A stretch of 64,000 nt of DNA from Haloactinopolyspora alba (lineage in GTDB: Bacteria > Actinomycetota > Actinomycetes > Jiangellales > Jiangellaceae). A program made the position numbers and the translations under genes. Positions 12,982 to 32,708 of this stretch are shown in pieces. The stretch's first letter is position 1. Each line of letters opens with the position of its first letter. The stretch spans positions 1 through 64,000 of the forward strand of contig NZ_PYGE01000009.1 in NCBI RefSeq assembly GCF_003014555.1, in the 5' to 3' direction. Under the pieces are notes generated by a model. The model was not told the DNA's origin and searched no databases. It saw only the letters and a program-made list of their open reading frames with translations.

Positions 12982-13004
12982 CTCTTCAGACGAAAGGACC
13001 AACC

Positions 13005-14273: not shown

Positions 14274-14310
14274 TCCCGCCCGTTTCTCGATCTTTAGGAC
14301 ACTGACGCCC

Positions 14311-15459
14311 ATGACCACGACGCCACCTCCGTCGTCGTCCACTCTCGCCGGCCTCGCGCACCGCAGCCATCAGGTGATCACCGAGCACCAGCATCGCTCC
14401 GGTGCCTACCCGGCGTCGCCGACGTTCTCGGCCTACCGGGGATTCGCGTGGTTCCGAGACGGCTCGTTCACCGCCGAGGGGATCTCGCGGTACGGCGACG
14501 TCACGTCGGCGAATCGGTTCCACGACTGGGCGGCCGGTGTCCTCACCGATCGCCGCGGGCACATCGAGAGCCTGGTCGGCGCCGCGGACAGCGGCCGGCA
14601 GGTGCCGGTGGAGTCGATGCTGCCGACCCGGTTCACCCTCGAAGGCGGCGACGGCGCCGTGCAGTGGTGGAACTTCCAGACCGACGGATACGGGACGTGG
14701 CTGTGGGCGGTCACCGAGCACGCCCGCAGGCACGACCTGGACGTCGGGCGGTGGCGTCCGGCCATCCAACTCTGCGTGGATTACGTCGCGGCGTTCTGGG
14801 ACCGCAACTGTTACGACTGGTGGGAAGAACATCTCGACCAGCGGCACGTGTCCACTCTGGGAGCGCTGTACGGGGGCCTCGTCGCCGCGGTCGGCTCCGG
14901 CGTGGTGGATGCCGCACGAGCGGCGCGTGCCGGGCAGGTCGCCGAGGAGATCCGCAAGCTGGTCCTCGACGAAGGTGTGCGTGACGGGCACCTGATCAAG
15001 TGGCTCGGCAGCGAGGTCGTGGACGGGTCGCTGCCGGCGTGCGTCGTGCCGTTCGGTCTGGTGGAGCTGGACGATCCGGTCGCCGCGGCGACGCTCGACG
15101 CGGTGACGCGCGAGCTGGACACCGACGGCGGGGTGCACAGGTACGCGGCCGACGTCTTCTACGGCGGCGGGCAGTGGCTGCTGCTGTCGGCCCTGCTCGG
15201 CTGGAACCGGGCCGCGGCGGGCGACACGGCGGCCGCGTGGAGCTACCTGCACTGGATAGCCGCTCAAGCGACGAACGACGATGAACTGCCCGAGCAGGTG
15301 CCGCACCATCTGCTGGCACCCGAACATCGGGCGGAGTGGGTCGAGCGGTGGGGCACCGTCGCGACGCCGCTGCTGTGGTCGCACGGAATGTACCTCGTCC
15401 TGGCCGACGAACTCGGCCTGCTGACCGGAGAGCCGCGACAGTGGCAGGAGCGGCGATGA
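14311..15459 (+). CDS. GH15 glucohydrolase, likely isomaltose-specific
   Basis: A 382-residue stand-alone (alpha/alpha)6-barrel GH15 protein lacking the N-terminal beta-sandwich domain of the 586-residue paralogue at 6500. The likely general acid lies in DWWEEH (E172/E173), and the likely base is E328 in LPEQV. No signal peptide. Kribbella flavida has an intracellular isomaltose glucohydrolase of GH15 next to a GH31 enzyme and a sugar importer, used to break down cyclobis-(1->6)-alpha-nigerosyl; size and context match. The specific activity is therefore an inference from synteny and family. Its stop overlaps the GH31 start (ATGA). Confidence 0.78.
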   Translation: MTTTPPPSSSTLAGLAHRSHQVITEHQHRSGAYPASPTFSAYRGFAWFRDGSFTAEGISRYGDVTSANRFHDWAAGVLTDRRGHIESLVGAADSGRQVPVESMLPTRFTLEGGDGAVQWWNFQTDGYGTWLWAVTEHARRHDLDVGRWRPAIQLCVDYVAAFWDRNCYDWWEEHLDQRHVSTLGALYGGLVAAVGSGVVDAARAARAGQVAEEIRKLVLDEGVRDGHLIKWLGSEVVDGSLPACVVPFGLVELDDPVAAATLDAVTRELDTDGGVHRYAADVFYGGGQWLLLSALLGWNRAAAGDTAAAWSYLHWIAAQATNDDELPEQVPHHLLAPEHRAEWVERWGTVATPLLWSHGMYLVLADELGLLTGEPRQWQERR

Positions 15460-17783
15460 CGGCGGTGGACGGCGAGCAGACCGTGATGAGGCACCGTCCG
15501 CACGGTGTCGGGCACCCGTACGCCGTCTCGCCGGACCAGCGCGTTCCGGTGCTTCCGGAGGCCGGGCAGCGCGTGCGTCTCGGCGTGGCGGCCGCGACCG
15601 AGGTGACGTCGGTGACGTGCGAGTGGGTGACCGTGACCAGCGGCGACGCGGCCGATGGCGGTACCGCGGGCGGCGAAGCCCGCACGCTCACGATGCGGCC
15701 CGCCCGGCCGGACGCGGGAGACGCTGCTGCGTTGGCCGGGGGAGAGGGTCATCTCGCGCAGGCGCAGGCCGCCGCGACGGCGTCGGACGGCGGATGGGAG
15801 GTGACGACCGAGCCGGTGCGTGACGGTGCGCGCTACCGGTACCGCTTTCACGCCACCCTCGGAGGCGGGACCGGCGAGGACGTGGGCACGGAGTGGTTCG
15901 AGTTCAGCACCGCCCGCTGGGTGCCTGACGCGGGTACGTTGAGCATCGCCTCTGACCGGCTCGTGGACGGCAGTCTCGAGTGGCTCGTCGTCGCCGGCCG
16001 CGCGCATCGTGCCCGGTTCGCGCTGCGGCTCGAGCCGGACGAGCACGTCGTCGGTTTCGGTGAGCGTTTCGACGCGGTGGACCAGCGCGGTCGGCGGCTG
16101 GACGCTGTCGTCTTCGAGCAGTACAAGTCGCAGGGCCGGCACGCACGGACCTACCTGCCCATGCCGTTCGCGCACGTGGTGTCCGAGTCCGGGCCGAGTT
16201 GGGGCTTTCACGTCCGGACGTCGCGTCGTACCTGGTACGACGTGGGTGCGTCCACGCCGGACCGCCTGGTCGTCGAGGTCGCCCTGGGTGGAACGGACGA
16301 CGAGACGGTCGACGTCGCCATCTACGACGGAACGCCCGGTGACGTGCTCGCCGCGTTCACCGCGCAGGTCGGTCGGGCCGAGGAGCTGCCGACGTGGGTG
16401 TTCCGACTGTGGGCGTCCGGCAACGAGTGGAACACGCAGCGGATCGTGATGGACCGGATGCGGCGGCATCGCGAACTCGACATCCCGGTGGGTGCCGTTG
16501 TCATCGAGGCATGGAGCGACGAGCAGACCTTCGCAACGTTCCGGGACGCACGTTACGAGGTGCACCGCGACGGAGCGCCACACGCCGCGGAGGACTTCGA
16601 CTACCCCGCGGACGGCGCCTGGCCGGACCCGAAGGGAATGATCGACGAACTGCACGACCGGGGGATCAAGGTGATCCTGTGGCAGATCCCGCTGCTGAAG
16701 ACCCGGTACGAGCTGGGCGCCGACGTCAGCGACGACGCGCAGGTCATCCGGGACGGCGCCGAACTGGTGCGCGACGGCCACGCCGTGCGTGAGGCGGACG
16801 GCGGCGCCTACCACAACCGGGGCTGGTGGTTCCCGCAGTCGCTGATGCCGGACCTGTCCGTGCAACGCACCCGCGACCAGTGGACGCAGAAGCGCCGGTA
16901 CCTGGTCCGTGACCTCGACGTCGACGGGTTCAAGACCGACGGTGGCGAGCACGCGTGGGGCCACGACCTGCGTTACGGCGACGGGCGCCGCGGCGACGAA
17001 GGCAACAACCTGTACCCGGTGCACTACGCGCGCGCCTACGGTGACCTGCTGCGTTCCGAGGGCAAGGCGCCGGTGACGTTCTCGCGCGCCGGCTTCACCG
17101 GGTCGCAGGCGCACGGTGCGATCTGGGCCGGTGACGAGGACTCCACCTGGGAGGGGTTCCGCTCGTCGATCATCGCCGGGATCACCGCGTCGGCGTGCGG
17201 CATCGTCTACTGGGGCTGGGACCTCGCCGGGTTCTCCGGCGACGTGCCGGACCCGGAACTGTACCTGCGCGCGGCGGCTGCGTCGTGCTTCATGCCGATC
17301 ATGCAGTACCACTCCGAGTTCCACCATCACGAGCCGCCGCTGCGGGACCGGACGCCGTGGAACGTCGCCGAGCGCACCGGCGACCAGCGTGTGGTTCCGG
17401 TCTTCCGGCGATTCGCGCACTTGCGCGAGCGGCTCGTGGACTACCTGGCCGAGCAGGCGAGGGTGTCCGTGCGGGAGTCGCGTCCGCTGATGCGTGGGCT
17501 GTTCTTCGACCACCCCGGCGACCCGTCGGTATGGCGGTACCCGCTGCAGTTCAAGCTCGGCGACGCGCTGCTGGTGGCGCCGGTCGCCGAACCGGGTGTC
17601 GACGACGCGGTCGTGTATCTGCCCGAGGGCCGGTGGGTCGACGTGTGGACCGGGACACACCACGCCGGGCCGGGCGAGGTGACATTGCCGGCGCCGCTCG
17701 ACCAGCCACCGGTCGTGTGTCGCGCCGACCGATGGCCGCAGTTGCGCGCGGCGTTCGCAGATCAACGGGGGACGTCCGAGTGA
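15456..17783 (+). CDS. GH31 alpha-glycosidase (isomaltose-releasing type proposed)
   Basis: A 775-residue GH31 protein. The catalytic nucleophile is D495 in DGFKTDGGEHAWG, and the acid/base is D560 in WAGDEDSTW. The N-terminal galactose-mutarotase-like sandwich and C-terminal sheet domains are present. There is no signal peptide, so it acts on imported sugar. In the characterised K. flavida cluster the GH31 partner linearises the cyclic tetrasaccharide and releases isomaltose for the GH15 enzyme; the same division of labour is proposed here. The ATG overlaps the GH15 stop, and it is the last gene of the operon. A broad alpha-glucosidase or alpha-xylosidase remains possible. Confidence 0.82.
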   Translation: MTAVDGEQTVMRHRPHGVGHPYAVSPDQRVPVLPEAGQRVRLGVAAATEVTSVTCEWVTVTSGDAADGGTAGGEARTLTMRPARPDAGDAAALAGGEGHLAQAQAAATASDGGWEVTTEPVRDGARYRYRFHATLGGGTGEDVGTEWFEFSTARWVPDAGTLSIASDRLVDGSLEWLVVAGRAHRARFALRLEPDEHVVGFGERFDAVDQRGRRLDAVVFEQYKSQGRHARTYLPMPFAHVVSESGPSWGFHVRTSRRTWYDVGASTPDRLVVEVALGGTDDETVDVAIYDGTPGDVLAAFTAQVGRAEELPTWVFRLWASGNEWNTQRIVMDRMRRHRELDIPVGAVVIEAWSDEQTFATFRDARYEVHRDGAPHAAEDFDYPADGAWPDPKGMIDELHDRGIKVILWQIPLLKTRYELGADVSDDAQVIRDGAELVRDGHAVREADGGAYHNRGWWFPQSLMPDLSVQRTRDQWTQKRRYLVRDLDVDGFKTDGGEHAWGHDLRYGDGRRGDEGNNLYPVHYARAYGDLLRSEGKAPVTFSRAGFTGSQAHGAIWAGDEDSTWEGFRSSIIAGITASACGIVYWGWDLAGFSGDVPDPELYLRAAAASCFMPIMQYHSEFHHHEPPLRDRTPWNVAERTGDQRVVPVFRRFAHLRERLVDYLAEQARVSVRESRPLMRGLFFDHPGDPSVWRYPLQFKLGDALLVAPVAEPGVDDAVVYLPEGRWVDVWTGTHHAGPGEVTLPAPLDQPPVVCRADRWPQLRAAFADQRGTSE

Positions 17784-17925: not shown

Positions 17926-19791
17926 TCAGGTGTGCACGGCGAGCAGTTGGTCGCGAAACACTTCCGGCAGCGTGTCCTGCGAAAGTGCTCGCACGATGTG
18001 TGCTGCGCCTTCGGCTGCTGATCCCGCTGCCTCCGTCAACTCGTGGCCGGCCGCGGTGAGCCGCTGCTCGAGCAAGTGCCGCAACGGCCCGTCCTGACCT
18101 GCGATCCCGCCCACCGCCGCGAGTCGCCGGGTAAGGCCATCGGCAGCGTGCAGCAGCGTGGCCGCGAGCTCGTCGGCGGCTTGGGCGAGTAACTCGGCCG
18201 CAGCGTCGTCCTCTCGCGCCGCCGCCACGACGTCGGGCACGAACGACGCCATCGTCGCGGAGGGATCGGGGCTGCGGTGCAGGTCGTTGACGAGCGTCGC
18301 TACGCTGCCGAAGCGACTCTCGGCTGCTGTGCGCAGGGCCGCGGACGTCGTGGGTCGGCCCGTTGCATGTCGAACCGCGACCTCCAGCGCCCGACGACCG
18401 ATCCACGCCCCGCTGCCGATGTCGCCGAGCAGGTGACCGAGGCCGTCGGTGCGCCTCCACGTGGTCGTCGCATCGGTGGCGATCACGACCGAACCTGTTC
18501 CGGCCGCGAGCACCGCCCCGGCCTCGAACCCCAGCGCTCCCACGTAGGACGACACGCCGTCTGCGAACACCGCCATCATGTCGGCGTGCACGATGTTCAG
18601 GATCGGCAGCAGCGCCTCCGTGACGTTCGGAAACGCCCGACCACCGGCGACTCCCAACCCCAGGGTGGCGACATCCAGGCCGTGCCGTCGCGTCGAGACC
18701 GTCACTTCACGGGCCACGGCGTCGCTGACCGCCCGCAGGTCCGGACCTGTTGCGGACACGGACGGCCGTACGTGACCTTGCACCATGTCGACGAGCTCGC
18801 CGCCGCGCACGATCGCGACGCGATAGCCACTGGCGCCGATGTCGACGCCCACGTGGCAGTCCTGGGCGGTGCGTCGACGGTTCGACCTGGTCGTGTGCTG
18901 TACCGCCTCTCGCAGGCTGCGATGCTTCTCGTCCAGGGCACGCGCTCGTGCAGGATCGACGTCCAACAGCAGGACGAGCAGAGCCGTGCGAACCTCTCCA
19001 CCGCAGGTGTCGAGGGCGCGGGCGGCTTCCGGGGCTGATGCGCCGGAGGCGACTTGCAGCAGGGTGAGTACGCGGGCGCGCAGCTTGTCGTTGACCGGGA
19101 CGAGATCGATCATCAGATTCGAGTAGGTGTGGCCCAAGCGGATCATCAGCGCGGTGGAGAAGCTGCTCAAGATCAGCTTCTGGGCCGTTCCCGCCTTCAT
19201 CCGGGTCGATCCGGTGATCACCTCGGGGCCGGTCGCGGCACAGAGGTGATGATCGGCCCCATCGGCCAGGGGTGCACTGGGATCAGAGGTGATGGCGACG
19301 GTGCGGGCGCCGAGTTCCCGTGCGCGACGAAGGGCGCCGGCGACGTACGGCGTCCTGCCGCTGGCGGCCAGGCCGATGGCGATGTCATCGGCCCGGAGGG
19401 CCTGCTCGGCGTCCGCGGCGCCGGACTCGGGGTCATCCTCGGCGTCCTCGACGGCGCTGATCATCGCTGCCGTGCCACCCGCGAGATGAGCGGTGAACGT
19501 GTCGGAGGACACCCCATAGGTCGCCGGCACCTCGGCGGCGTCCAGCACCCCGAATCTGCCCGAGGTGCCGGCGCCGAAGTAGTGGACGCGACCGCCTCGT
19601 CGTACCGCCGCGACTGCATGATCCACGACCGCCGCCAGTTGCGGCAGTGTTGCCGCGACAGCCCCGGGAACATTGCTGTCCTCCGTGTTGATGCAGGTCA
19701 GGATCTCCTGCGTGCTCATCAGGTCGATGTCGTACGACTCCGACAGGCGTCGTTCCGTGGGCTTGTCCGTGCCGGTCGCGCGAGTTGTCAC
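17926..19791 (-). CDS. fused N-acetylmuramic acid 6-phosphate etherase and BadF-type amino-sugar kinase
   Basis: A 621-residue two-enzyme protein. Residues 10-300 are MurQ: the SIS-domain motif HYFGAGTSGRFGVLDAAEVPATYG includes catalytic-type E87, and TGSTRMKAGTAQK near 193-205 is also typical. Residues 312-615 are a BadF/BcrA-type ATPase/sugar kinase: GVDIGASGYR (315-323), AAGTGSV (429-435) and GDIGSGAWIG (456-465). MurQ cleaves the D-lactyl ether of MurNAc-6-phosphate to GlcNAc-6-phosphate; BadF-type kinases such as MurK phosphorylate MurNAc and GlcNAc. The fusion could thus do both successive steps. GTG start overlaps the heparinase stop (GTGA). No EIIC-type MurP nearby. Confidence 0.85.
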   Translation of the reverse strand: MTTRATGTDKPTERRLSESYDIDLMSTQEILTCINTEDSNVPGAVAATLPQLAAVVDHAVAAVRRGGRVHYFGAGTSGRFGVLDAAEVPATYGVSSDTFTAHLAGGTAAMISAVEDAEDDPESGAADAEQALRADDIAIGLAASGRTPYVAGALRRARELGARTVAITSDPSAPLADGADHHLCAATGPEVITGSTRMKAGTAQKLILSSFSTALMIRLGHTYSNLMIDLVPVNDKLRARVLTLLQVASGASAPEAARALDTCGGEVRTALLVLLLDVDPARARALDEKHRSLREAVQHTTRSNRRRTAQDCHVGVDIGASGYRVAIVRGGELVDMVQGHVRPSVSATGPDLRAVSDAVAREVTVSTRRHGLDVATLGLGVAGGRAFPNVTEALLPILNIVHADMMAVFADGVSSYVGALGFEAGAVLAAGTGSVVIATDATTTWRRTDGLGHLLGDIGSGAWIGRRALEVAVRHATGRPTTSAALRTAAESRFGSVATLVNDLHRSPDPSATMASFVPDVVAAAREDDAAAELLAQAADELAATLLHAADGLTRRLAAVGGIAGQDGPLRHLLEQRLTAAGHELTEAAGSAAEGAAHIVRALSQDTLPEVFRDQLLAVHT

Positions 19792-22700
19792 TCGGCCAGC
19801 TTCCACGGTCCGTGCGGTTCGCCGGGGACGTCGTTCCTCGTCCGCCTCGTCGTGACGTAGCGGTTCTCGCGGTACTCCACCTCGTCCTTCTCCGTGAAGA
19901 TCCTCGACGGCCGCCACAACGCCGTGCCGTCCTCCGCCACCGCGATTTCCTGCCACGGACCGCGGGCAGCACCGGGTTCCTGGTTCGGCGCCCGCCACGA
20001 GGCAAGCCAGACGGAGCCTTCATGGGTGACGGAGTCACCTTCCGAGTACGTGGTCGCGGGGTCCCAGGCCCGTGGCGCGGGCTCGACGTCGGAGTCGTCG
20101 GTGTCGCAGGATCGGGAAACTGTGAGGTCCTCGAACGTGCTCTCCTTCGTCGCGTAGAGCCCGACACCGCCGCTACGCACGACGGTGTCGCGAGCATCGA
20201 GGATCTCTTCGCCGTTCAACGTCACCGTGATGCGGTCACCGTGGATCGTTGCGCCCAGCTCGACCGGACCGTCCAGAGGGTCGCTGAGGGATGTTCCCGC
20301 TACCTTGACCGGCCCCGACCTGTGAGCCTCGCGGATGATGCTCGCGTACTGCGTCCCGCGGCTGGTCTTGCCGACATGGATCCGGTACCCGTAGGAGTCG
20401 GTGGAATCTCGCAACGAGACGCCTGCTGCACCGCGGCCGGGCAAGGTGACGGTGGTGTCGACCTCGTAGTTGCACGTCTCGGAGAAGCGTGCGGGCAGGG
20501 CCGAGTCGACCAAGACGTGTGCCCTGCCACCGTTGGCAGCGAGCCGCAGTTGACCCGAGTCGACGGACGCCTCGCCGCGGATCCCCCGCCAGTGGTCCTG
20601 GTCCAGCACTTCGGCAATCGTGACGTTGTCGAAGGTCGCGGCCCGTCGATGCGTATAAGCCGCGACGCCTCCGGTAGGCAGGCGTGTGTCATTGGCGGAG
20701 ATCGACGTGTCGCCGACAGTGGCGGTCAGATGTCGCCCGACGGCGGATACGGTCATGGTGTGTGCGGCATCGGCGTCGAGTCGCAGATCAGTCTCGGCGA
20801 GGACGGTGAGCTGGCCGTAGAAGACCTTGATGATCTGAAGCTTCACACCCTCCGACGTGTTGAGAACGTTGGCCCGGTAGTAGTTGCGGGAGTCGCGGTA
20901 GCGGAACGCGAGACCGGTCCGGGTGGTCGTCTGGTGGCGCGTCCCGGGCACGACCTCCGCTGTCATGACCATGTCGGTCGGCACGTCTTGCTGCACCGCG
21001 AACGACAGCCTGTCGGCGGTCGACGTCTGCGCCAGCTGCGTGCCTTCCTGGCCTCCCAGCGCCCAGTCACCGTGCGCCGGCCTCCAGCCCTCGAGAGACC
21101 CGTCATCGAAGCCGTAGACGGTGCTGTCCAGACTCGCCTCCGCGAAGTCCTCCTCGAGTACCGGGGTGAGATCGACGGCTGCCTCGACGGAGAGGGAGAC
21201 GACGTCACCGTTGCGGGTGAACGCCGCCGGCTCACCGTTCACCAGCACCACGTCCGCGTCCGGAGCGTTGATCGACAGCGACCCCGTGAACGGATCCCCG
21301 AGCGAGATTCGCGCGGTGTCGCCGGCCAGCTCCACACTGATGTCGGACACGACGTCGGATGCGTCGACGAGGCTCGCGTCGTCCCTGACCAGCGACGAGC
21401 CCGACGTCAGCGAGTACCGCGTGAGGCCGCCGTCCTCGTCACGCTCGATGTAGGCGGTCTCGCCGTCGGTCGCGGCAGTCCCGAACTCCCTCGACGCGGG
21501 ATCGTCCTCACGTGAGAGGTAGAACGTGCCGGTTCCCTCGGGGAGGTCGATCTCCAGAGCGGTCGCCACGGAGTGATCGACTCCGGGCAGCTCGATGCGT
21601 TCCGCTGTCACCGACGGCGCCGGACCGGCCTTGCCTGGAACCACCACGGTGTCCAGTCCGGTGGCGCCGGTGGTGGACCAGTCGTACGACAGATAGTCGA
21701 CGTCGGTGCGTACGTCCTGACCGACCCGGACGGCGCCGTCGTCGTGGACGGTCGGGGTGACGTCGGAGCCAGCGGTGCCGACGGGTACGAGCTGCACGCC
21801 GGAGACCGGCTCGTCGCCCGGCACGGTGTCGAACCCGACCGTGGCGACGCCCGTGCTGTCGTCGACGGAGACCGGGTCGCCCGGGAAGTGCCAGAGCTGC
21901 CGGTAGTCGTGCGCGTCGGCATCGCCCGTCAGCGAGTCGGAGACGATCCAGAAGCCGGGCTTGACGAAGTAGACGACCCGGTCGTGGGTGATCGGCCGGT
22001 ACCCCTGAGCCTCGCCACGGTAGACATCGAGGCCCGCGTTCGAGCGCCACAGCCATGTGGCGCGGGTGACTCCGGCTTCCTGCGGGCGTCCATCGACCTC
22101 GACGGTGTTGTGCGCCTCGGTCGTCCGACGCATCCAGTTGTTCGTCTCGGTTGAGCTGTAGTCTTTTCCGACCCCTGGATCGACGATCAACGGGCGGCCG
22201 TAGGCAGCCATCACGAGGCTGAGGTCGTCCGGATGCCGGTGGGATCTCGTGTAGCCGGTGTTCTGGTTGTTGATCAGCATGTACCGGGCATCGCTGTCCC
22301 AGCCGGAGCGCTGGACCGCGTAGCTGATGGGGTAGACCGTGGACCCGAGCGTCGGAACCGTCCCCTCGGTCCGACCGGAGCCGACCCAGGAGAAGTCGGT
22401 CCACGAGTTTCGCGCTCCGCTCGTCCGAATGGCGTCCGTACCCGCCCTGCCCTTCGCGGTGTCACCGATCAGAGCAGATTCGAGATTCGGCATGCGAGTC
22501 GCGAACAGAGCGTCTGCCAGCCGGTCCGCCGAACTGGCGATCGAGTCGGGGAGGCTCCGCCCGTTGGTGTCAGCGAACTCGATGATGGTGTTCAGCAGAT
22601 TCGCAACGTAGGCGTGGTAGTTGAAGGTCGGCTCGCGGTACACGCTGTCGCTCTTGAGGTGTCTCCCGACGAACCATTCGACCGAACGCACGACGTACGG

Positions 22701-23540
22701 CTCCCACCTCGGCGATGCCGAGAACTCGGGAAAGTACACCGCCGAGACATAGATCGCGCGTGCGATCGAAAGGTACCAGTTGTTCCCTACGTAGTTCTGC
22801 AGCACGTCAGACAGGTGATCCGTCGTCGCGTGGACACCGGACAGGTACGCCACGAGGTCGGACGGGTCGATGGTCGGCTCGGTGCGGAACACGGAGAACG
22901 AGTCGACGAGCTGCGCGAGCCGCTTGGCCGCCGAGAGATTCCTGTTCGACGGCCAGCTCTGCATGTCGTTGAAGAAGTCGAGGGAGATGTCCATCCACGC
23001 GGCCGCGTACGTTGCGCGTTTCTGCGGGTCGCTCTCGTTGAGGTACGCGTCCGTCAGAACGGGCATGAACGAGAAGTCGGTCATCAGAACCCGCGCATGG
23101 CCCGGGTTCTCCTCGGTGCCGCCCCAGGTGTCGTGCCAGTCGACGTCGATCCGCTGCTCGGCATCGTCGTAGAAGTCGCGGGTCTCGGTGCCGAACCGGA
23201 AGATCCCGCTCGCGAGTTCGTCGGCGGTCGCGTCACGAATGCCGCCCCCTCCGGGCGACGGAACTTCGATACCGGTGCGGCCGGAATAGAACTCCGTGAG
23301 TTCCTCCGCGGCGCCTTCCTCGTCACCGGCGTCGAGCCTGTCCGCGACGTCGGCGAGCTCTGGACGTGACAGGTCGAGCAATTCGCCGAGCTCTGACATG
23401 TCGCCCGCCGTAGTGGCGGCCGTCGCCGTGGGCAGGCCCGTCGTTGACAGGCCTGTCGTCACGAGGGCCAGCACAAACATTGCGGCAGCCATAGCGCGAG
23501 CACGACCGTGAGTGGCTCGCCGGGGAACGTTCCGCTGCAT
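19788..23540 (-). CDS. secreted heparinase II/III-like polysaccharide lyase with two CBM5/12-type modules
   Basis: A 1250-residue secreted protein. After a signal peptide (~1-42) comes an alpha-toroid with NYHAYVANLLNTI near 360. A heparinase II/III beta-sandwich follows, with SHRHPDDLSLVMAAYGRPLIVDPG near 430. The ~800-1150 region holds two LamG/DUF1080-like beta-sandwich repeats, each with YRIHVG or YRANVL-type strands. The C terminus has two Trp-rich modules (AWDPATTYSEGDSV and ALWRPSRIFTEKDEV, 1155-1250) of the CBM5/12 chitin-binding type. Start: ATG with AAGGAGG upstream. The substrate should be a polysaccharide containing uronic acid or amino sugar; chitin-like binding and the coupled MurQ-kinase gene point to amino-sugar polymers. 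Confidence 0.82.
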   Translation of the reverse strand: MQRNVPRRATHGRARAMAAAMFVLALVTTGLSTTGLPTATAATTAGDMSELGELLDLSRPELADVADRLDAGDEEGAAEELTEFYSGRTGIEVPSPGGGGIRDATADELASGIFRFGTETRDFYDDAEQRIDVDWHDTWGGTEENPGHARVLMTDFSFMPVLTDAYLNESDPQKRATYAAAWMDISLDFFNDMQSWPSNRNLSAAKRLAQLVDSFSVFRTEPTIDPSDLVAYLSGVHATTDHLSDVLQNYVGNNWYLSIARAIYVSAVYFPEFSASPRWEPYVVRSVEWFVGRHLKSDSVYREPTFNYHAYVANLLNTIIEFADTNGRSLPDSIASSADRLADALFATRMPNLESALIGDTAKGRAGTDAIRTSGARNSWTDFSWVGSGRTEGTVPTLGSTVYPISYAVQRSGWDSDARYMLINNQNTGYTRSHRHPDDLSLVMAAYGRPLIVDPGVGKDYSSTETNNWMRRTTEAHNTVEVDGRPQEAGVTRATWLWRSNAGLDVYRGEAQGYRPITHDRVVYFVKPGFWIVSDSLTGDADAHDYRQLWHFPGDPVSVDDSTGVATVGFDTVPGDEPVSGVQLVPVGTAGSDVTPTVHDDGAVRVGQDVRTDVDYLSYDWSTTGATGLDTVVVPGKAGPAPSVTAERIELPGVDHSVATALEIDLPEGTGTFYLSREDDPASREFGTAATDGETAYIERDEDGGLTRYSLTSGSSLVRDDASLVDASDVVSDISVELAGDTARISLGDPFTGSLSINAPDADVVLVNGEPAAFTRNGDVVSLSVEAAVDLTPVLEEDFAEASLDSTVYGFDDGSLEGWRPAHGDWALGGQEGTQLAQTSTADRLSFAVQQDVPTDMVMTAEVVPGTRHQTTTRTGLAFRYRDSRNYYRANVLNTSEGVKLQIIKVFYGQLTVLAETDLRLDADAAHTMTVSAVGRHLTATVGDTSISANDTRLPTGGVAAYTHRRAATFDNVTIAEVLDQDHWRGIRGEASVDSGQLRLAANGGRAHVLVDSALPARFSETCNYEVDTTVTLPGRGAAGVSLRDSTDSYGYRIHVGKTSRGTQYASIIREAHRSGPVKVAGTSLSDPLDGPVELGATIHGDRITVTLNGEEILDARDTVVRSGGVGLYATKESTFEDLTVSRSCDTDDSDVEPAPRAWDPATTYSEGDSVTHEGSVWLASWRAPNQEPGAARGPWQEIAVAEDGTALWRPSRIFTEKDEVEYRENRYVTTRRTRNDVPGEPHGPWKLAE

Positions 23541-23881: not shown

Positions 23882-24922
23882 ATGACACCGATGGCGACCC
23901 AGAAAGAAATCGCACGTCGTGCCGGCGTCTCGGTGTCGGTCGTCTCTGCCGTGCTCAACGGCACTACACACACTCGGATGAGTGACGAGACGCGGGCGCG
24001 CATCGAGGCGGCCATCGCCGAGGTCGGGTATGTGCCCAACGATGCTGCACGTGCATTGCGGCGCCAGCAGGCGGGCACGATCGCGGTGGTCGTCGAGAAG
24101 CTGGAGAATCCCGCCTACAAGGAGCTGTTCCACGGCATCTACGAGGCGGCCGAGGCGCGGGGTTGGGCGGTGGTGCTGGGCGACACCGTCTGGATGCGTT
24201 CCGGCAGCCACTTTCTCGCGCGGCTGCTTGGTCGAGGGTCGATAGATGCGATCCTGCTGCGGCACGACGGCCTGATCGACGAGGAGGCGCTCGCTCACCT
24301 GCGCGCAAGACCCACCCCCGTCGTGCTGCTGGAGCGCCAATCCGACCCGCAAGATCCGTGGGTGGCGGTAGACGACTCCGCCGCTGCACGGTTGGCCACC
24401 GAGCACCTCATCGAGTTCGGACACACCGATATCGCCTTCGTGGGCGGTACCGCCGGCCAGCCCTCGACGGCCCGTTACGAGGGATACGTGGCCGCCATGA
24501 ACGACGCGCGGCTGTCACCTCGGGAGCACTTGTTCACGGGCTTCGGCGCCGAGTCCGGTGTTCGGGGACTGACTGAGCTCCGATCAGGCGATGTGTTGCC
24601 CACCGCGGTCGTGGTCGCGAACGTGATGTCGGCGGTCGGCTTGCTCGCAGCGGCTGCCGATGCGGGGATCGACGTTCCGCGCCGGCTCTCGGTGGTCGGG
24701 ATCCACGACGTCGAGATCGCCGATGTCGTCAGGCCGTCGTTGACGACCGTCCGGTTGCCGATGCGGGCGCTGGGCGTTCGGGCGGTCGAGGAGCTGTCGG
24801 CGCTGCTCTCGGGTGCTCCCATGGAGCCGGGCGTGATCGCGGACCCGCCGCCGCAAGTCATCGCCCGTAGTAGTACCGCGCCGGCTCCTGCTGAGCTGAC
24901 GTCTCGGAGTGACGAGTTGTGA
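23882..24922 (+). CDS. LacI family transcriptional regulator of the heparinase/MurQ/importer regulon
   Basis: A 346-residue LacI repressor. The N-terminal helix-turn-helix (ATQKEIARRAGVSVSVVSAVLNG) and hinge (AARALRRQQAGTIAVVV) are intact, followed by a periplasmic-binding-fold effector domain. GAGGGG precedes the ATG at 23882 by 8 nt; a second ATG three codons later is possible. The gene lies between two operons that each carry the same 20-bp operator, and no copy sits at its own start, so it likely controls both neighbours but not itself. The effector should be a breakdown product of the polymer cut by the lyase. Confidence 0.88.
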   Translation: MTPMATQKEIARRAGVSVSVVSAVLNGTTHTRMSDETRARIEAAIAEVGYVPNDAARALRRQQAGTIAVVVEKLENPAYKELFHGIYEAAEARGWAVVLGDTVWMRSGSHFLARLLGRGSIDAILLRHDGLIDEEALAHLRARPTPVVLLERQSDPQDPWVAVDDSAAARLATEHLIEFGHTDIAFVGGTAGQPSTARYEGYVAAMNDARLSPREHLFTGFGAESGVRGLTELRSGDVLPTAVVVANVMSAVGLLAAAADAGIDVPRRLSVVGIHDVEIADVVRPSLTTVRLPMRALGVRAVEELSALLSGAPMEPGVIADPPPQVIARSSTAPAPAELTSRSDEL

Positions 24923-25015: not shown

Positions 25016-26971
25016 ATGACCGATCACCGCCCGCTCTTCCTACCGAACCGGCGGACGTTCCTCGCCGGTGTCGGCGCCGCCGGCCTCGCCGCAGTCGTGG
25101 GCTGCAGCGCCGACGGCGACAGCCCCAGCCGGAGCGACAAAGGCCCCGAAGCACCTGGCCTGGCAGACCTCGTCGACTCGGGCGAACTGCCCCCGGTCGA
25201 GGATCGACTTCCGGCCAAACCGCTGGTGGTCGAGCCTGTCGAGCGCGTCGGCGTCTACGGCGGTCGCCTGAACACCGTCGTGCTCGGTCAGCAAGACCTC
25301 TCCTACACGAAGATGACGATCGGCTACGAGGGTCTGATGCGCTGGACGCCGGACTGGTCGGACACGATCCCGAACGTCGCCGAGTCCGTCGACGTGTCCG
25401 ACGATGCCTCGACGTACACGTTCCACCTGCGCGAGGGCATGCGATGGTCGGACGGCAAACCGTTCACGGCCGCCGACATCGTGTTCGCCGCGAACGACGT
25501 CGCGTTCAACGAGGAGTTCGCGGGCGCGGTGGAGTCGGCCCACCTGTCCAACCCCGATGGCGACGCGACGGCCGAGGCGCTCGACGAGTACACCGTCCGG
25601 ATCACGTTCCCGTCACCGAACGCGGGCTTCCTCGACGAGCTCTCCACGTTCAACAGCGCGGGGGTCCTCGTCGGGCACCCCAAGCACTACATGTCGCAGT
25701 TCCACCCCGCCCACAACGACAAGGCGCAGGCGAACGCGTCGGCGGCCGGCTTCGAGCACTGGGTCGACTACTACGTCGACCGCGCCGACTGGCGCATCAA
25801 CACCGAACTGCCGACCGTGAACGGGTGGGTCGTGACCCGCACCCTCGAGGAAGGCAGCGAGATCCTCGCCGAGCGCAACCCGTACTACTGGAAGGTCGAC
25901 CCCGACGGCAGCCAACTGCCGTACCTCGACGAGATCCGCCACGAGCTGGTCAGCGACGAGGAGGTCGTGCTGCTCAAGGCGACCCAGGGCGAGCTCGACA
26001 TCGTGACCCGCCACATCAACAGTCTCGAGAACAAGCCGGTGCTCGCCGACGCTCGCGAGGACGGCGACTACCATTTCATCGACCTGCAGACGAGTTTCAT
26101 GAACGAGATGGTCATCTCGCTCAACCTCAACCACCAGAACCAGGTGAAGCGGGAGATCTTCCAGAACAAGGACTTCCGCATCGCGCTCTCACACGCGATC
26201 AACCGCGACGAGATGAACAACGCGGTATTCCAGGCGCAGGGCGAGGCGTGGCAGGCCGCGCCCAACCCCGACTCGATCTACTACGACGAGGAGATGGCGC
26301 AGCAGTACACCGAGTACGACGAGGATCTTGCCAACCAGATGCTCGACGAGGCCGGGTACGCCGAGCGTGACTCCGACGGCTACCGTGTCGGCCCCGACGG
26401 CGAGCGCATCCGTATCACCGTCGAGATCGCCTCTCCCGCGCCGACGCCGTACATGGTCGACGCCATGGAGCTCGTCTCCGGGTACTGGGACGCGGTGGGC
26501 ATCGACACACGGCCGGAACCGATCGACCGCTCGCTGTACCAGGAGCGCACCGCGGCGAACGAGCACGACGCCGGTGTATGGAACGGTACCGGCGGGTTCC
26601 GCGACGAGGTGCTCGCGCCGCTGTACTACCTGCCTTCGCGCACGGCGTTGGTCGCGTGGGCCGTCGAGTGGGCGGAGTACTTCATCAGTCGTGGCGCGGA
26701 AGGCGAGACTCCGCCCCAGGCGCCGCTGCGCCAGATGGAGCTGTTCTGGCAGATGGAGTCGGAGCCCGACCAGGCGCGGCGCGAGGAGCTCTTCCGCGAG
26801 ATCCTGCAGATCGCCAAGGACGAGTTCTACACGATCGGCACGTTACGGATCCCGCTCAGCTACGGCACCGTCGCCAACAGCCTCAAGAACGTGCCGGAGG
26901 CCTTCCCGACCGCGTTCCGGTTCGCCGATCCCGCACCGACCAACCTGTCGCAGTACTTCTTCGAGGACTGA
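25016..26971 (+). CDS. ABC transporter substrate-binding protein, family 5 (dipeptide/oligosaccharide type)
   Basis: A 651-residue lipoprotein. The N terminus has both a twin-arginine motif (NRRTFLAG) and a lipobox (VVGC), implying Tat export and lipid anchoring. The mature part has the SBP_bac_5 pattern, including LREGMRWSDGKPFTAADIVFA and a C-terminal mixed lobe. Family members bind dipeptides, oligopeptides, muropeptides or, in several bacteria, oligosaccharides. Operator and promoter are shared with the heparinase/MurQ operon, so the ligand is probably a product of that lyase. A competing ATG five nt upstream opens only a two-codon frame and was not used. Confidence 0.87.
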   Translation: MTDHRPLFLPNRRTFLAGVGAAGLAAVVGCSADGDSPSRSDKGPEAPGLADLVDSGELPPVEDRLPAKPLVVEPVERVGVYGGRLNTVVLGQQDLSYTKMTIGYEGLMRWTPDWSDTIPNVAESVDVSDDASTYTFHLREGMRWSDGKPFTAADIVFAANDVAFNEEFAGAVESAHLSNPDGDATAEALDEYTVRITFPSPNAGFLDELSTFNSAGVLVGHPKHYMSQFHPAHNDKAQANASAAGFEHWVDYYVDRADWRINTELPTVNGWVVTRTLEEGSEILAERNPYYWKVDPDGSQLPYLDEIRHELVSDEEVVLLKATQGELDIVTRHINSLENKPVLADAREDGDYHFIDLQTSFMNEMVISLNLNHQNQVKREIFQNKDFRIALSHAINRDEMNNAVFQAQGEAWQAAPNPDSIYYDEEMAQQYTEYDEDLANQMLDEAGYAERDSDGYRVGPDGERIRITVEIASPAPTPYMVDAMELVSGYWDAVGIDTRPEPIDRSLYQERTAANEHDAGVWNGTGGFRDEVLAPLYYLPSRTALVAWAVEWAEYFISRGAEGETPPQAPLRQMELFWQMESEPDQARREELFREILQIAKDEFYTIGTLRIPLSYGTVANSLKNVPEAFPTAFRFADPAPTNLSQYFFED

Positions 26972-26986
26972 TCCGCGAGTCGCGGT

Positions 26987-27021
26987 CACGGGCGGTGCCG
27001 ACGCGATCGGCGCCGCCCGTG
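26987..27021 (+). other. intercistronic stem-loop
   Basis: Two 15-nt arms (26987-27001 and 27007-27021) pair with a single G-U, closing a CGCGA loop. It lies between binding-protein and permease genes and has no T run. Such hairpins commonly stabilise the upstream message or lower expression of membrane subunits relative to the binding protein; that role is inferred. Confidence 0.6.
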
Positions 27022-27056
27022 CGACGGCCGAACGTAGAGATGGGTGAGAGAACCCG

Positions 27057-27989
27057 ATGGTGCAGTTCCTGATCCGGCGCATCCTGTACATGATCCCGAC
27101 GCTGTTCCTGATCTCGATGCTGGTGTTCGTGATCATCCAGCTCCCGCCCGGTGACTACCTGACCACGGTGATCGTGGAGATGGAGGAGAGCGGCGAGGGC
27201 GTCGATCAGGCGCAGATCGAGTACCTGCGTGGGCGGTACGGACTGGATCAGCCGATCTGGGTGCAGTACTGGCAGTGGATCTCGGGCATCATCTTCGAGC
27301 TGGACTTCGGCCATTCGTTCGAGTGGGGCCGCGAGGTGTCGTCGCTGGTCGCCGACCGGCTGCCGCTGACGATCGCGATCTCGCTCATCACCGTCGTGTT
27401 CACGTGGGCGATGGCGTTGCCGATCGGCATCTACTCGGCCGTGAAACAGTACTCGGTCGGCGACTACTTCTTCACCACCATCGGGTTCCTCGGCGTCGCG
27501 ACGCCGAACTTCCTGCTCGCGCTGTTGTTGATGTGGGCCGCCGCCAGCATGGGGATGAGCGTGGGCGGCATGTCGCCCGCGATGTTCGTGGTCGCCGTCG
27601 TCGTGCTCGGCACGGCCGGCACTGCGGGCCTCATCCGCGTCATGCGCGCGAACCTTCTCGACGAGCTGAAGAAGCCGTACGTGGTCGCGGCCAGGGCGCG
27701 CGGCATCCCGCAGCGCAAACGCCTCATCAAATACCCCGTACGTGTGGCCATGAATCCGTTCGTCTCGTCCATCGGGTGGCTGCTTCCCGGGTTGATCTCC
27801 GGTGAGGTCATCGTCTCCAGCGTGATGAACCTCCACACCACCGGCCCGCTGCTGCTGGAGGCGCTACGCGGTCAGGACATGTACCTGGCGGGATCGATCA
27901 TCCTGATCGCCGCCGTGCTCACCGTTGTCGGAACGCTGCTGTCGGACCTTGCGCTGGCGTGGCTCGATCCGCGGATCCGGATCAACTGA
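27057..27989 (+). CDS. ABC transporter permease (DppB/OppB type)
   Basis: A 310-residue permease with the DppB signature start (FLIRRILYMIPTLFLISMLVFVI), a periplasmic loop carrying the YLRGRYGLDQPIWVQYWQWI segment, and five further helices. The cytoplasmic coupling loop contains VVAARARGIPQRKRLIKYPVRVAMNP. It is separated from the binding-protein gene by a strong stem-loop and is followed 13 nt later by the second permease. Together with the next two genes it forms a complete peptide/oligosaccharide importer. Confidence 0.87.
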   Translation: MVQFLIRRILYMIPTLFLISMLVFVIIQLPPGDYLTTVIVEMEESGEGVDQAQIEYLRGRYGLDQPIWVQYWQWISGIIFELDFGHSFEWGREVSSLVADRLPLTIAISLITVVFTWAMALPIGIYSAVKQYSVGDYFFTTIGFLGVATPNFLLALLLMWAAASMGMSVGGMSPAMFVVAVVVLGTAGTAGLIRVMRANLLDELKKPYVVAARARGIPQRKRLIKYPVRVAMNPFVSSIGWLLPGLISGEVIVSSVMNLHTTGPLLLEALRGQDMYLAGSIILIAAVLTVVGTLLSDLALAWLDPRIRIN

Positions 27990-28002
27990 GGGAGCGAGAC
28001 AG

Positions 28003-29154
28003 ATGTTCCGAAACAACGCCTCGACCATCGGGCCCGACAGTGAGCCGGACGACCAGGCCGCGGAGAAGTACGCCGTCGCCTCGCGCTGGCGCCTGGTGTG
28101 GCGGCGCTTCCGCAACCACAAGCTCGCCATGGCGGGCCTGATCGTCACGATCCTGGTGTACGTCGTGGCGGTGTTCGGGGAGTTCCTCGCCCCGTACAGC
28201 ACCAGCCACCTCAACGACGAGTACACGTATGCACCGCCGCAGCGGCTGCAGATCGTGGACACGTCCGGGGACGACTGGGACTGGGGCCTGCACGTCAACG
28301 GCTACACGATGGAGCGCGACCCCGAGACGCTCGCACAGGAGTTCACGACGGACCCGGACAACAAGGTGCCGGTGGGGTTCTTCGTGAAAGGAGAAGAGTA
28401 CGAACTGTTCGGCCTGATTCCGTGGGACCGTCATTTGATCGGCCCGGTCGACAGCGACACCCCGATGTACCTGCTCGGAGCGGACCAGATGGGGCGCGAT
28501 CAGTTCTCGCGCATCATCCACGGCACGCGGATATCGATGTCGGTCGGCCTCGTCGGTGTCGCGATGGGATTCGTTCTCGGCATCCTGCTCGGAGGCATCT
28601 CGGGGTACTTCGGCGGCAGGACCGACACGATCGTCCAGCGTGCCGTCGAGCTGTTCATGTCGCTGCCCACACTGCCCCTGTGGCTGGGGCTGGCGGCGGC
28701 GATCCCCCGAGATTGGGGTAGCGTCGAGAGATACTTCGCGATCACCGTCGTGCTGTCGCTGGTGGCGTGGACGGGCCTGGCGAGAGACGTACGCGGCCGG
28801 TTCATGTCGCTGCGCGAGGAGGACTTCGTGACGTCCGCCCGCCTCGACGGCACGGGCGAGCCCCGAATCATCTTCGGCCACGTCCTGCCGTCGTTCACCA
28901 GCCACCTGATCGCGACGCTGACCCTGTCGATCCCGACGATGATCCTCGCCGAGACGGCGCTGTCGTTCCTCGGTCTCGGGCTGCAGCCACCGACCGTGTC
29001 GTGGGGTGTGCTGTTGCAGGAGGCCCAGAACATCCGCGTCATCTCGACGGCGCCGTGGCTGCTGCTGCCGGGGGTCGCCGTCGTGGTCGCGATCCTCGCG
29101 CTGAACTTCCTCGGCGACGGTCTGCGCGATGCGGCCGACCCGTACAAGCACTGA
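28003..29154 (+). CDS. ABC transporter permease (DppC/OppC type)
   Basis: A 383-residue permease, longer than the usual ~300. A basic cytoplasmic N terminus precedes the first helix (AMAGLIVTILVYVVAVFGEFLAP). A ~110-residue acidic extracytoplasmic insertion follows (residues ~65-165), before the conserved LLGADQMGRDQFSRIIHGTRIS segment. Five more helices and the coupling sequence TSARLDGTGEPRIIFGHVLPS complete it. Long loops at this position are known in some OppC-type subunits of oligosaccharide importers. ATG with GGGAG upstream. Confidence 0.86.
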   Translation: MFRNNASTIGPDSEPDDQAAEKYAVASRWRLVWRRFRNHKLAMAGLIVTILVYVVAVFGEFLAPYSTSHLNDEYTYAPPQRLQIVDTSGDDWDWGLHVNGYTMERDPETLAQEFTTDPDNKVPVGFFVKGEEYELFGLIPWDRHLIGPVDSDTPMYLLGADQMGRDQFSRIIHGTRISMSVGLVGVAMGFVLGILLGGISGYFGGRTDTIVQRAVELFMSLPTLPLWLGLAAAIPRDWGSVERYFAITVVLSLVAWTGLARDVRGRFMSLREEDFVTSARLDGTGEPRIIFGHVLPSFTSHLIATLTLSIPTMILAETALSFLGLGLQPPTVSWGVLLQEAQNIRVISTAPWLLLPGVAVVVAILALNFLGDGLRDAADPYKH

Positions 29155-29170
29155 CAAGGGAGCACCCGCA

Positions 29171-31414
29171 ATGACCGCCATGACCCGAGCGGAGGAGGCC
29201 TCCGTCTCCCAGAACAGTGGTGCTGCGCGTGCGCCGGGCGACAGTGGCGAGGCCGTGCTGACCATCGACGGACTCAAGACGCACTACAAGACGGACGAGG
29301 GCGTCGTGAGAGCCGTCGACGGCGTCGATCTCACCGCCTACCGTGGCCAGACCACGTGCGTGGTCGGTGAGTCGGGCTGCGGCAAGTCGGTGACGGCGCG
29401 ATCGATCCTGCAGCTGATCGACCTGCCGGGGAAGATCGCCGACGGGCGCATCATGTGGCAGCCGGACCCGGCCGTCGAGGCCGTCGACCTGACGACGCTG
29501 GACGAGGACGGTGAGCAGCTGCGCCGCGTGCGCGGCGGCGAGATCGGCATGGTCTTCCAGGAGCCGATGGCGTCGCTGTCGCCGATGTACACGGTCGGAT
29601 CGCACCTGGTGGAGACGATCCTCCTGCACACGGATCTCAACGAGGCCGATGCGAAGGACCGGGCCATCCATGAGCTCAAGCGGGTGGGCATACCGCAACC
29701 GGAGCGGCGCTTCGACGCGTATCCGTTCCAGTTGTCGGGCGGCATGTGCCAGCGCGTGATGATCGCACTGGCGCTGTCCTGTGAACCCGCGCTGCTGATC
29801 GCCGACGAGCCGACCACTGCGCTCGACGTCACCACCCAGGCACGCATCCTCGACCTCCTCCTCGGGCTGCAGGAGGAGACCGGGATGTCGATGCTGTTCA
29901 TCACGCACGACCTCGGGGTGGTGGCGGAGATCGCGGCCGACGTGTCGGTGATGTACCTCGGCAAGGTCGTCGAGAAAGCCGGGGTGGACGAGCTGTTCGA
30001 GAACCCGCAGCACCCCTACACGCAGGCCCTGCTGGAGTCGATTCCGAGCCTGGACCATGACGGCCAGAAGCCGGGCCGTCTGCGCGCGATCAGCGGGACG
30101 GTGCCGCACCCCGCCGACCGTCCGGCCGGGTGCTCGTTCCACCCGCGCTGTCCGCACGCGATGGCGGGGACCTGCGATGCCGAAGAGCCCCCGGTGATCG
30201 ATCTCGGCGACGGCCGGATCGCACCCTGCCACCTGCACGACCCGGAGAGCTCGGGGCCCGGCCGGCCGTTGCCGTTGCTGCCCGTCCCGCCCGTCCAGGA
30301 GGCCCGGGCCACCGGCGCGGACGATGCGGTCGACGTCGCCGCCGTGCCCGCGCCCGACCTGGCTGGCAAGCAGCCGATGCTGCGCGTGCGGGACCTGTCG
30401 GTCGAGTTCCCGATCCGGAAGGGCTTCTGGAACCGCACCGTCGGGCACGTAGGCGCCGTCAGCAGCGTCGATCTCGACATCTACCCCGGTGAGACGCTCG
30501 GGCTCGTCGGCGAGTCCGGCTGCGGCAAGACCACGCTCGGTCGCAGCATCGTCCGCGCGCTGGAGCCCACACGGGGATCGATCACCTACCGCCCGCCCGG
30601 CTCGGACGGCGAGGTCGATCTTGCGGCACTTGGCGGCCGCGCGTTGCGGCCGTACCGCAGCGACGTGCGAATGATCTTCCAGGACCCCTTCACCTCGCTG
30701 AACCCGCGCAAGACTCTGCTGCAGCTGATCGGCGAGCCGCTCCGGCGGGCCGGCGCGCGCAACGGACCGGTCGCCGGCACGAAGGTGAACGACAGCACCA
30801 CCCAGGACCAGGTCGCCGAGATGCTCGCGAGGGTCGGCCTGCGGCCGGAGTACATGTGGCGATACCCGCACGCGTTCTCGGGCGGGCAGCGTCAGCGCGT
30901 CAACATCGCGCGGGCGCTCATCACCCGCCCCAGCGTGGTCGTCGCCGACGAGGCGGTGTCCGCCCTCGACGTGTCCGTGCGTGCGCAGATCCTGAACCTG
31001 CTGAAGGACCTGCAGGAGGAGTTCCGGCTCACCTACCTGTTCATCTCGCACGACCTGTCCGTGGTCGAGCACGTGTGCGATCGCGTCGCCGTGATGTACC
31101 TGGGGCGGGTGGTCGAGCGGGCCGACACGGACTCGTTGTTCGAACAGCCGCGGCACCCGTACTCGGAGGCGCTGCTGTCGGCGGTGCCGCAGCCCGATCC
31201 GCGCCAACGCGGCACAGGTAAGCGCATCCGCCTGCCAGACGACCTGCCGGATCCGACCGACCCGCCGCCTGGGTGCCGCTTCCACACCCGCTGCCGGTTC
31301 GCAGTCGAAGGACTGTGCGACCGGGCCGGAGCATCGCCGGTGCTCCGGGATGAGGCGAGTCACTCGGTCGCGTGTCTGCGCGCCGAGGAGATCCAGTTGC
31401 AGGGCCGCCAATGA
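29171..31414 (+). CDS. double ABC transporter ATPase (DppD-DppF fusion)
   Basis: A 747-residue protein with two complete nucleotide-binding domains. The first has Walker A GESGCGKS (~70), signature LSGGMCQR and Walker B LLIADEP; the second has GESGCGKT (~450), signature FSGGQRQR and VVVADEA. Each ends in the oligopeptide-transporter C-terminal extension with [10 protein letters not shown] and [10 protein letters not shown], typical of DppD/DppF. One gene thus supplies both ATPase subunits of the importer. It starts 16 nt after the permease, and the pyruvyl-transferase gene begins 28 nt after it. Confidence 0.88.
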
Positions 31415-31442: not shown

Positions 31443-32708
31443 ATGACGATCCAGGACCCGAGTCCAGGCCGTACCGTGCTTCTCCGCACGGCGTGGCAGG
31501 TGGACAACCTGGGCGATGTCGCTCATGTGCCGGGAGCGATCCGGGCACTCCAGAAGCACGGCGGGGCCGAGGTGATCCTGTGGCCGCTGGATCTCGGCAC
31601 ACGGGAGCGGCAGCTGATCGCCGAGATCCACCCCGACGTGGAGATCGTCGACGGGGAGGTCTCCGACAGCGGCCTGCCCACCGACTCTGACGTCCTCGCC
31701 GCGTGGGAGCGCGCGGACGTGTTCGTGCACGGCCCTGGCGCGTCGCCGATGCTGGGGAAGGAGATCGACGGCTGGCGCGCGCACACCGGCAAGCCGTACG
31801 GCTACTTCGGCGTCACGGCCGATCCGGTCTGCCCGCCCACGTTGGCGACGCTCGCCGAGATCGACAAGATGATCGACCTGCTGCTCGAGGACTACATGGA
31901 CGACGAGCTGCGCGAACGCCTCGAGGGTGCGGAGTTCTTCTACGCTCGCGACTCGCTGAGCCTGAAGTACCTGCGCGGCCAGAAGCTGCAGGGCGTGCGG
32001 CTGGAGTTCGGCCCGGATGCGACCTTCGAGTTCACGCACCGCGACGACGACGCGGCCGAGGCGTTCCTGCAGCGGTTCGGGCTCACCGAACGGCAGTTCG
32101 GCTGCTTCGTCCCGCGCGTGCGGTACGCGCCGTATCCGCAGATGAAGCGCCGGCACCCCACGCGCGAGCAGCAGCGCCGTGCGGCCCTGAACCAGGTGAC
32201 GTGTAGCGAGGACCTGGACGCGTTCGCGGGCATCGTGACCGACTGGGTGCGAACCACCGGCACACCCGCGGCGGTCGTGCCGGAGATGAGTTACGTGCAC
32301 GAGCTCGCGCTGGGGCATCTACCCGAGCGCCTCCCGGAGGACGTCCGTGATCGCGTGCACGTCCTGGACCGCTACTGGCCGCTCGAGGAGATGTCCGGCG
32401 TCTACGCGCGCGCTGCGGTCGTGGTGAGCATGGACTGTCATTCCCCGATCATCGCTGCCGCGCAGGGGACCCCGACGTTCTACGTGCGCCTGCCCACCGA
32501 GACGACGAAGGGCAGGATGTACGCGGATCTCGGCGACCCGGACATGGTGGTCGAGATCGAGGACGCGCCGCGTGCGGGGCAGCTCGCGATCGCCGCCTAT
32601 CGAGACTGGGACGCGGCGTCCCGTCGTGCGGTCGCGCTGGCCGAGAACGCGGATGCCCTGCTGCGGGAGGTGGCGGTCGCCGTGAGCCGTGCGCCGGCGC
32701 TCACCTGA
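31443..32708 (+). CDS. polysaccharide pyruvyl transferase-like protein
   Basis: A 421-residue cytoplasmic protein of the polysaccharide pyruvyl transferase (CsaB/WcaK-like, GT-B fold) family. NLGDVAHVPGAIRAL near residue 20 matches the family N-terminal motif. The C-terminal region MDCHSPIIAAAQGTPTFYVRL...TKGRMYADLG matches the donor-side R/C-H...A...G-P...K motif. Known members transfer pyruvate ketals from PEP to sugars of cell-wall or exopolysaccharides. Here it is the last gene of an import operon under a catabolic LacI operator, which is unexpected for a biosynthetic enzyme. A role in modifying or removing decorations on imported sugars is possible but unproven. Confidence 0.72.
   Translation: MTIQDPSPGRTVLLRTAWQVDNLGDVAHVPGAIRALQKHGGAEVILWPLDLGTRERQLIAEIHPDVEIVDGEVSDSGLPTDSDVLAAWERADVFVHGPGASPMLGKEIDGWRAHTGKPYGYFGVTADPVCPPTLATLAEIDKMIDLLLEDYMDDELRERLEGAEFFYARDSLSLKYLRGQKLQGVRLEFGPDATFEFTHRDDDAAEAFLQRFGLTERQFGCFVPRVRYAPYPQMKRRHPTREQQRRAALNQVTCSEDLDAFAGIVTDWVRTTGTPAAVVPEMSYVHELALGHLPERLPEDVRDRVHVLDRYWPLEEMSGVYARAAVVVSMDCHSPIIAAAQGTPTFYVRLPTETTKGRMYADLGDPDMVVEIEDAPRAGQLAIAAYRDWDAASRRAVALAENADALLREVAVAVSRAPALT

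Follow-up and report, generated by a model that had tools for sequence, protein, structure and literature searches.

The kinase of C. acetobutylicum has dual activity on GlcNAc and MurNAc. In the Bacteroidota, a murT-murK-murQ operon has been characterised in which the kinase is specific for MurNAc (PMC5790795), and T94 and S133-P134-L135 of T. forsythia MurK make space for the lactyl group (PMC10465942). MurK of the T. forsythia murTKQ operon is a BadF/NagK-type ASKHA enzyme with a catalytic Asp, and it acts in series with MurQ (PMC5790795, PMC10465942). Also related to MurQ is NagS, an SIS enzyme that dehydrates GlcNAc-6P by elimination at C3. The NagS clade is reported to lie apart from MurQ and to be confined to Streptomycetaceae, and the protein is described as one SIS domain over its whole length (PMC12680351).

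Here we describe a gene in the window, a stretch of 64,000 nucleotides of the Haloactinopolyspora alba genome, that encodes a MurQ and a BadF-type kinase. The kinase part shares with T. forsythia MurK its type, its catalytic Asp and its place in series with MurQ. However, the T. forsythia MurK and MurQ are separate proteins, whereas the two form a single chain here. The fusion and NagS are both MurQ-related SIS proteins, but NagS, as described, has no kinase domain and forms a clade apart from MurQ. The chemistry is already known, and the single-chain form appears to be confined to this genome. A MurQ-kinase fusion was not found in the open-access literature, a scope outside which most subscription papers lie. 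If both halves work, the protein is a natural one-chain MurNAc kinase and MurNAc-6P etherase; if not, known steps have been rearranged in a rare way.

The fused gene and its MurQ half

The gene is read as 621 uninterrupted codons on the minus strand, from a GTG at 19791 to a stop at 17928-17926, while the plus strand of 17926-19791 is interrupted by stops. The original prediction of a MurQ fused to a BadF-type kinase is borne out, as both domains score over their family thresholds in this one frame and the coordinates are exact. The motifs that it named were also located (GVDIGASG at 315-322, AGTGS at 430, GDIGSG at 456, and E87); the strand and the local context were absent from it. The features of the gene are as follows.

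17926..19791, minus strand: gene for the fusion of MurQ with a BadF kinase (621 aa), starting at a GTG
18892..19764, minus strand: MurQ domain, aa 10-300, with catalytic E87 and E118 and the motifs GTSGR, SGRTP and GSTRMKAGT
18853..18891, minus strand: linker, aa 301-313, about 13 residues between the MurQ and kinase domains
17929..18852, minus strand: BadF/NagK/MurK-type kinase domain, with phosphate loops at 315-322 and 429-435, the catalytic Asp D411, and a sugar-site segment at 448-461
18850..18863, minus strand: codon 314, a GTG with AGGA 7 nt ahead of it, as a possible internal start proposed from sequence only

The MurQ half scores 352 bits against NF003915 (cut-off 168) and 319 bits against NF009222 (cut-off 255). 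At 293.7 bits, it misses the TIGR00274 equivalog cut-off of 302 by 8 bits. E87 and E118 align with E83 and E114 of E. coli MurQ (the gene used in the alignment, L111, is annotated murQ and lies beside murR and murP), the catalytic positions reported for that enzyme (Hadi et al. 2008). Matches to the MurQ structures 4s12 and 4lzj were obtained at 1e-64 or better using phmmer. In the AlphaFold2 model, the MurQ domain has pLDDT values mostly of 80-94, and the MurQ half is the only confident part of the full model. Comparison of this half with 4s12 using Foldseek gives a TM-score of 0.83 by target (E 3.7e-20), which identifies the MurQ fold. The SIS fold, both Glu residues and the signature motifs are shared with the known MurQ proteins of E. 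coli, H. influenzae (4lzj) and Yersinia (4s12), and identity to MurQs is 40-60%. The fusion differs from these proteins in its added C-terminal kinase and in the missed TIGR00274 cut-off.

In a phylogenetic tree, the MurQ half falls within a clade (support 100/99) of actinomycete MurQs that are mostly encoded beside MurR (RpiR) regulators. It shares 53-60% identity with the MurR-linked actinomycete MurQs. Within the clade, the fused half is unplaced and its branch is long.

The kinase half

The PF01869 (BcrAD_BadFG) profile covers aa 314-597 with 55.9 bits (cut-off 31.5), and phmmer matches the kinase half to NagK, hexokinase and MurK-type kinases at about 1e-7 to 1e-10. The cut-off of NagK_SO3507, the GlcNAc kinase equivalog, is not reached (55 vs. 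370 bits). Similarity to the solved MurNAc kinases is very low, except for 8zo3 (E 0.0015). GVDIGASG, AAGTGSV and GDIGSG are kept, and D411 aligns with D95 of T. forsythia MurK.

The residues aligned to T94 and S133-P134-L135 of MurK are A410 and D449-G450-L451, an assignment made by alignment only and at a position that is not diagnostic. The fusion has small residues at the T94 and P134 positions (A410 and G450), and L135 is matched by a Leu (L451). These residues would allow MurNAc in the pocket without proving MurNAc use. A structural model of the kinase half (pLDDT 52.6) is too poor for pocket inspection.

The kinase half branches outside the NagK-type clade, which includes the NagK of the H. 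alba genome itself, and its branch is long. Near to it are the BadF kinases of complete MurNAc clusters (L114, L127) and those of operons with the order GH89-murQ-badF (L068-L073, L126). Since both halves have long branches (0.98 and 1.38) and the score falls 8 bits short of the TIGR00274 cut-off, specificity may have drifted.

Related gene clusters

Complete GH3-NamZ-Bla-MurR-MurQ-SBP-permeases-BadF clusters, in which Bla denotes a beta-lactamase fold, are present in genomes G312 and G048 (the L114 and L127 clusters). The BadF kinases encoded there belong to the closest group of homologues of the fused kinase, with 38% identity across 311 aa in one case and 47% across 144 aa in another, and we regard these clusters as the best evidence that such kinases may serve MurNAc catabolism. 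Both halves have homologues there (55-58% identity for MurQ and 38-47% for the kinase). The clusters encode the enzymes in two separate genes, whereas the two are fused here and lie inside a lyase locus.

Conserved GH89 (NAGLU)-MurQ-BadF operons with a ROK regulator and an ABC transporter were observed in L068-L073 and L126. In L068-L073, which come from the same taxonomic order, the genes are arranged as at the fusion locus, with an enzyme gene followed by murQ and then badF, and with short overlaps. These operons differ from the fusion in that the genes are separate, the MurQ is divergent and GH89 stands in place of the lyase. The GH89-linked MurQs form a separate branch that lacks the SGRTP arginine but keeps both catalytic Glu residues; in the fusion, this motif is canonical. 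Loss of this arginine suggests that the GH89-linked enzymes act on a different amino-sugar substrate.

Proposed function

Direct observations are the fused frame, the domains with the residues that they conserve, and the relationships of each half. Judged by homology, the likeliest function is a two-step MurNAc kinase and etherase activity, which we propose with moderate confidence. The protein would act in the cytoplasm as a bifunctional enzyme for amino-sugar salvage. We infer that its C-terminal kinase uses ATP to phosphorylate imported MurNAc at O6, and possibly GlcNAc as well, with D411 as the base. The N-terminal MurQ domain, which probably dimerises with itself and has E87 and E118 in its active site, would eliminate D-lactate from C3, and subsequent rehydration would yield GlcNAc-6-phosphate, which could then be taken on by NagA. 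Fusing the two enzymes would fix their stoichiometry at 1:1 and possibly permit local passing of the intermediate.

That one chain could carry out two successive steps had been put forward in the original prediction. The idea gains from the architecture, the active-site residues and the kinship of the kinase to NamZ-NagZ-MurR-MurQ-ABC clusters, and loses from the lack of a MurNAc-release gene alongside.

The lyase locus

The start of the fusion overlaps the preceding gene, which encodes a lyase, by 4 nt. The features of this side of the locus are as follows.

19788..23480, minus strand: heparinase II/III-like lyase, secreted-looking, with a C-terminal CBM5/12; start codon uncertain
23891..24922, plus strand: LacI-family regulator whose orthologue is the regulator in the lyase loci of relatives
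25016..31414, plus strand: SBP_5 / Dpp-Opp-type ABC transporter, with a binding protein, two permeases and fused ATPases
31476..32708, plus strand: polysaccharide pyruvyl transferase-like protein, conserved in the relatives' lyase loci

Genes for NamZ, NagZ, an amidase and MurR were not found beside the fusion, where the neighbours are the lyase, the LacI regulator and the Dpp-type ABC transporter. In an alignment to heparinase III structures, the lyase keeps the N, Y and H positions, which we take to be catalytic. Lyases 70-71% identical to it occur in five relatives, whose loci also contain orthologues of the LacI and pyruvyltransferase-like genes, together with genes for an SBP_1-type ABC transporter and for a second heparinase-like protein. 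Neither murQ nor badF was found near the lyase in these five relatives. In the window, the fusion and the Dpp-type transporter occupy the place of the SBP_1 transporter and the second lyase, and a search of the whole genome, run without a positive control, did not find a second heparinase-like lyase. The CBM5/12 tail is present only in the window lyase; its 70-71% identical orthologues lack it. Either the fusion was recruited for lyase products, or accidental recombination placed a CBM-murQ-badF piece here.

Given the overlap with the lyase gene and the lack of an adjoining MurNAc-release gene, the physiological substrate could be an amino sugar from outside peptidoglycan. The fusion might then serve the lyase locus: a uronate/amino-sugar polymer would be cleaved outside the cell by the lyase, and the products imported, phosphorylated at position 6 and subjected to C3 elimination (of a lactyl ether or another group), peptidoglycan MurNAc playing no part. 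This role is unlikely, although it accords with the 4-nt overlap, the replacement of the relatives' second lyase and SBP_1 transporter, the CBM5/12 tail found on the window lyase alone in a genome with no second lyase detected, and the occurrence in relatives of MurQ-BadF pairs behind a GH89 alpha-N-acetylglucosaminidase. The fused MurQ has canonical motifs, unlike the GH89-linked MurQs without the SGRTP arginine. Moreover, the link to a lyase was seen once, the relatives have the lyase without a nearby murQ or badF, and the co-location may be an accident of recombination. We consider it distinctly unlikely that a kinase-etherase recruited to a secreted-lyase locus strips a C3 substituent from a 6-phosphorylated non-peptidoglycan amino sugar. 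To our knowledge, MurQ chemistry has no such use on a sugar of a non-peptidoglycan polysaccharide.

The pyruvyl transferase-like gene (31476-32708) is 51-52% conserved in the catabolic lyase loci of the five relatives. In one relative, the lyase adjoins a heparinase II/III-like protein that carries a Nudix domain at its C terminus (L140:12365-14695). Also present in the window, at 9973-17783, is a ROK-ABC-GH15 (isomaltose glucohydrolase-like)-GH31 cluster that is very close to solved structures of a Kribbella-type alpha-glucan pathway. This GH15/GH31 cluster was considered and rejected, as it is for alpha-glucan use and unrelated to the fusion.

The rest of the genome

A further MurQ, which is GntR-linked, is encoded on contig C10 and a NagK-type kinase on contig C11. 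Because these are present, the fusion is an accessory extra copy and not the sole route. It is probably expressed together with the upstream secreted lyase. An extracellular GH3-NamZ-beta-lactamase-fold trio was identified on contig C22 and a further NamZ on C1 (NamZ occurs in 19 of the 22 genomes of the order). NagA is present over its cut-off and a NagB-like sequence below its cut-off. The trio and NagA would supply and consume the pathway intermediates. MurP was not found in the genome, the only PTS EIIC resembling the glucose/GlcNAc type and scoring below the equivalog cut-offs. The suggestion that the fusion allows recovery of MurNAc without a PTS stands in part: the absence of a detected MurP and the presence of the trio and NagA agree with it, and given the other MurQ and the NagK, the fusion may not be needed.

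This redundancy in the genome, along with the long branches of both halves, raises the question of whether one half only works, in which case either MurQ has decayed and a GlcNAc/MurNAc kinase is left, or the kinase has decayed and an etherase is left. We find this very unlikely, as all checked catalytic residues are intact in both halves, and the frame is open, with even GC3 and coding signal throughout.

The junction and the distribution of the fusion

The sequence at the fusion junction is ...HRSLREAVQHTTRSNRRRTAQDCHVGVDIGASG. Across it, the coding signal holds frame 0, and GC3 is 0.81 in the MurQ half and in the kinase half. The last MurQ helix is modelled, with low confidence (AlphaFold2), as far as approximately aa 309. 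Both alternative frames are stop-free near the junction and the next stops lie about 65 codons further. Thus, a single indel restores no normal MurQ end, and a frameshift artefact was rejected. A normal MurQ end could return by substitution at one of five codons between 296 and 319 that are one substitution away from a stop. In addition, GTG-314, with its plausible Shine-Dalgarno sequence, might also yield free kinase. That the fusion is mainly formal, with such a restart giving free kinase too or with a stop removed by a substitution error in the assembly, is the least probable of the readings: AGGA 7 nt before GTG-314 and the five near-stop codons fit it, but without a stop MurQ translation must enter the kinase, and a substitution error is unlikely in this 49-contig draft.

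A check of how widespread the fusion is, as the original prediction had advised, found no second case in the order, class, phylum, plasmid or species-scan samples. These comprise the order, with 22 genomes in which every candidate or almost every one was scored, 393 genomes of the class (top three candidates scored and long frames followed up), 396 genomes of the phylum (searched at E 1e-88, in a sample that overlaps the class sample), 72,556 plasmids (tblastn) and 84,980 species genomes (six peptide patterns, with limited sensitivity). The fusion looks rare and is unique in the sample, from which diverged fusions, above all those of other phyla, could be missed.

Several candidates were rejected. 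The only plasmid record with >80% query coverage has two adjacent genes and no fusion, and long MurQ frames in relatives from the class are due to high GC, which lets the open frame extend past an ordinary murQ. In two Bacteroidota loci (L082, L083) and on an Arthrobacter plasmid (L090), the kinase gene and murQ are adjacent and unfused.

In the related actinomycetes that were inspected, murQ and badF are separate, with the kinase start and the murQ stop overlapping or nearly so. The fusion may have originated when a murQ-murK pair like those of related actinomycetes lost the stop codon of murQ. Another murQ (L078 in genome G006) has as neighbours, with names assigned by eye, genes for a Dpp-type transporter, serine beta-lactamase-like proteins, an RpiR-like regulator and a dipeptidase-like protein. 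This gene group is likely a cluster for muropeptide use.
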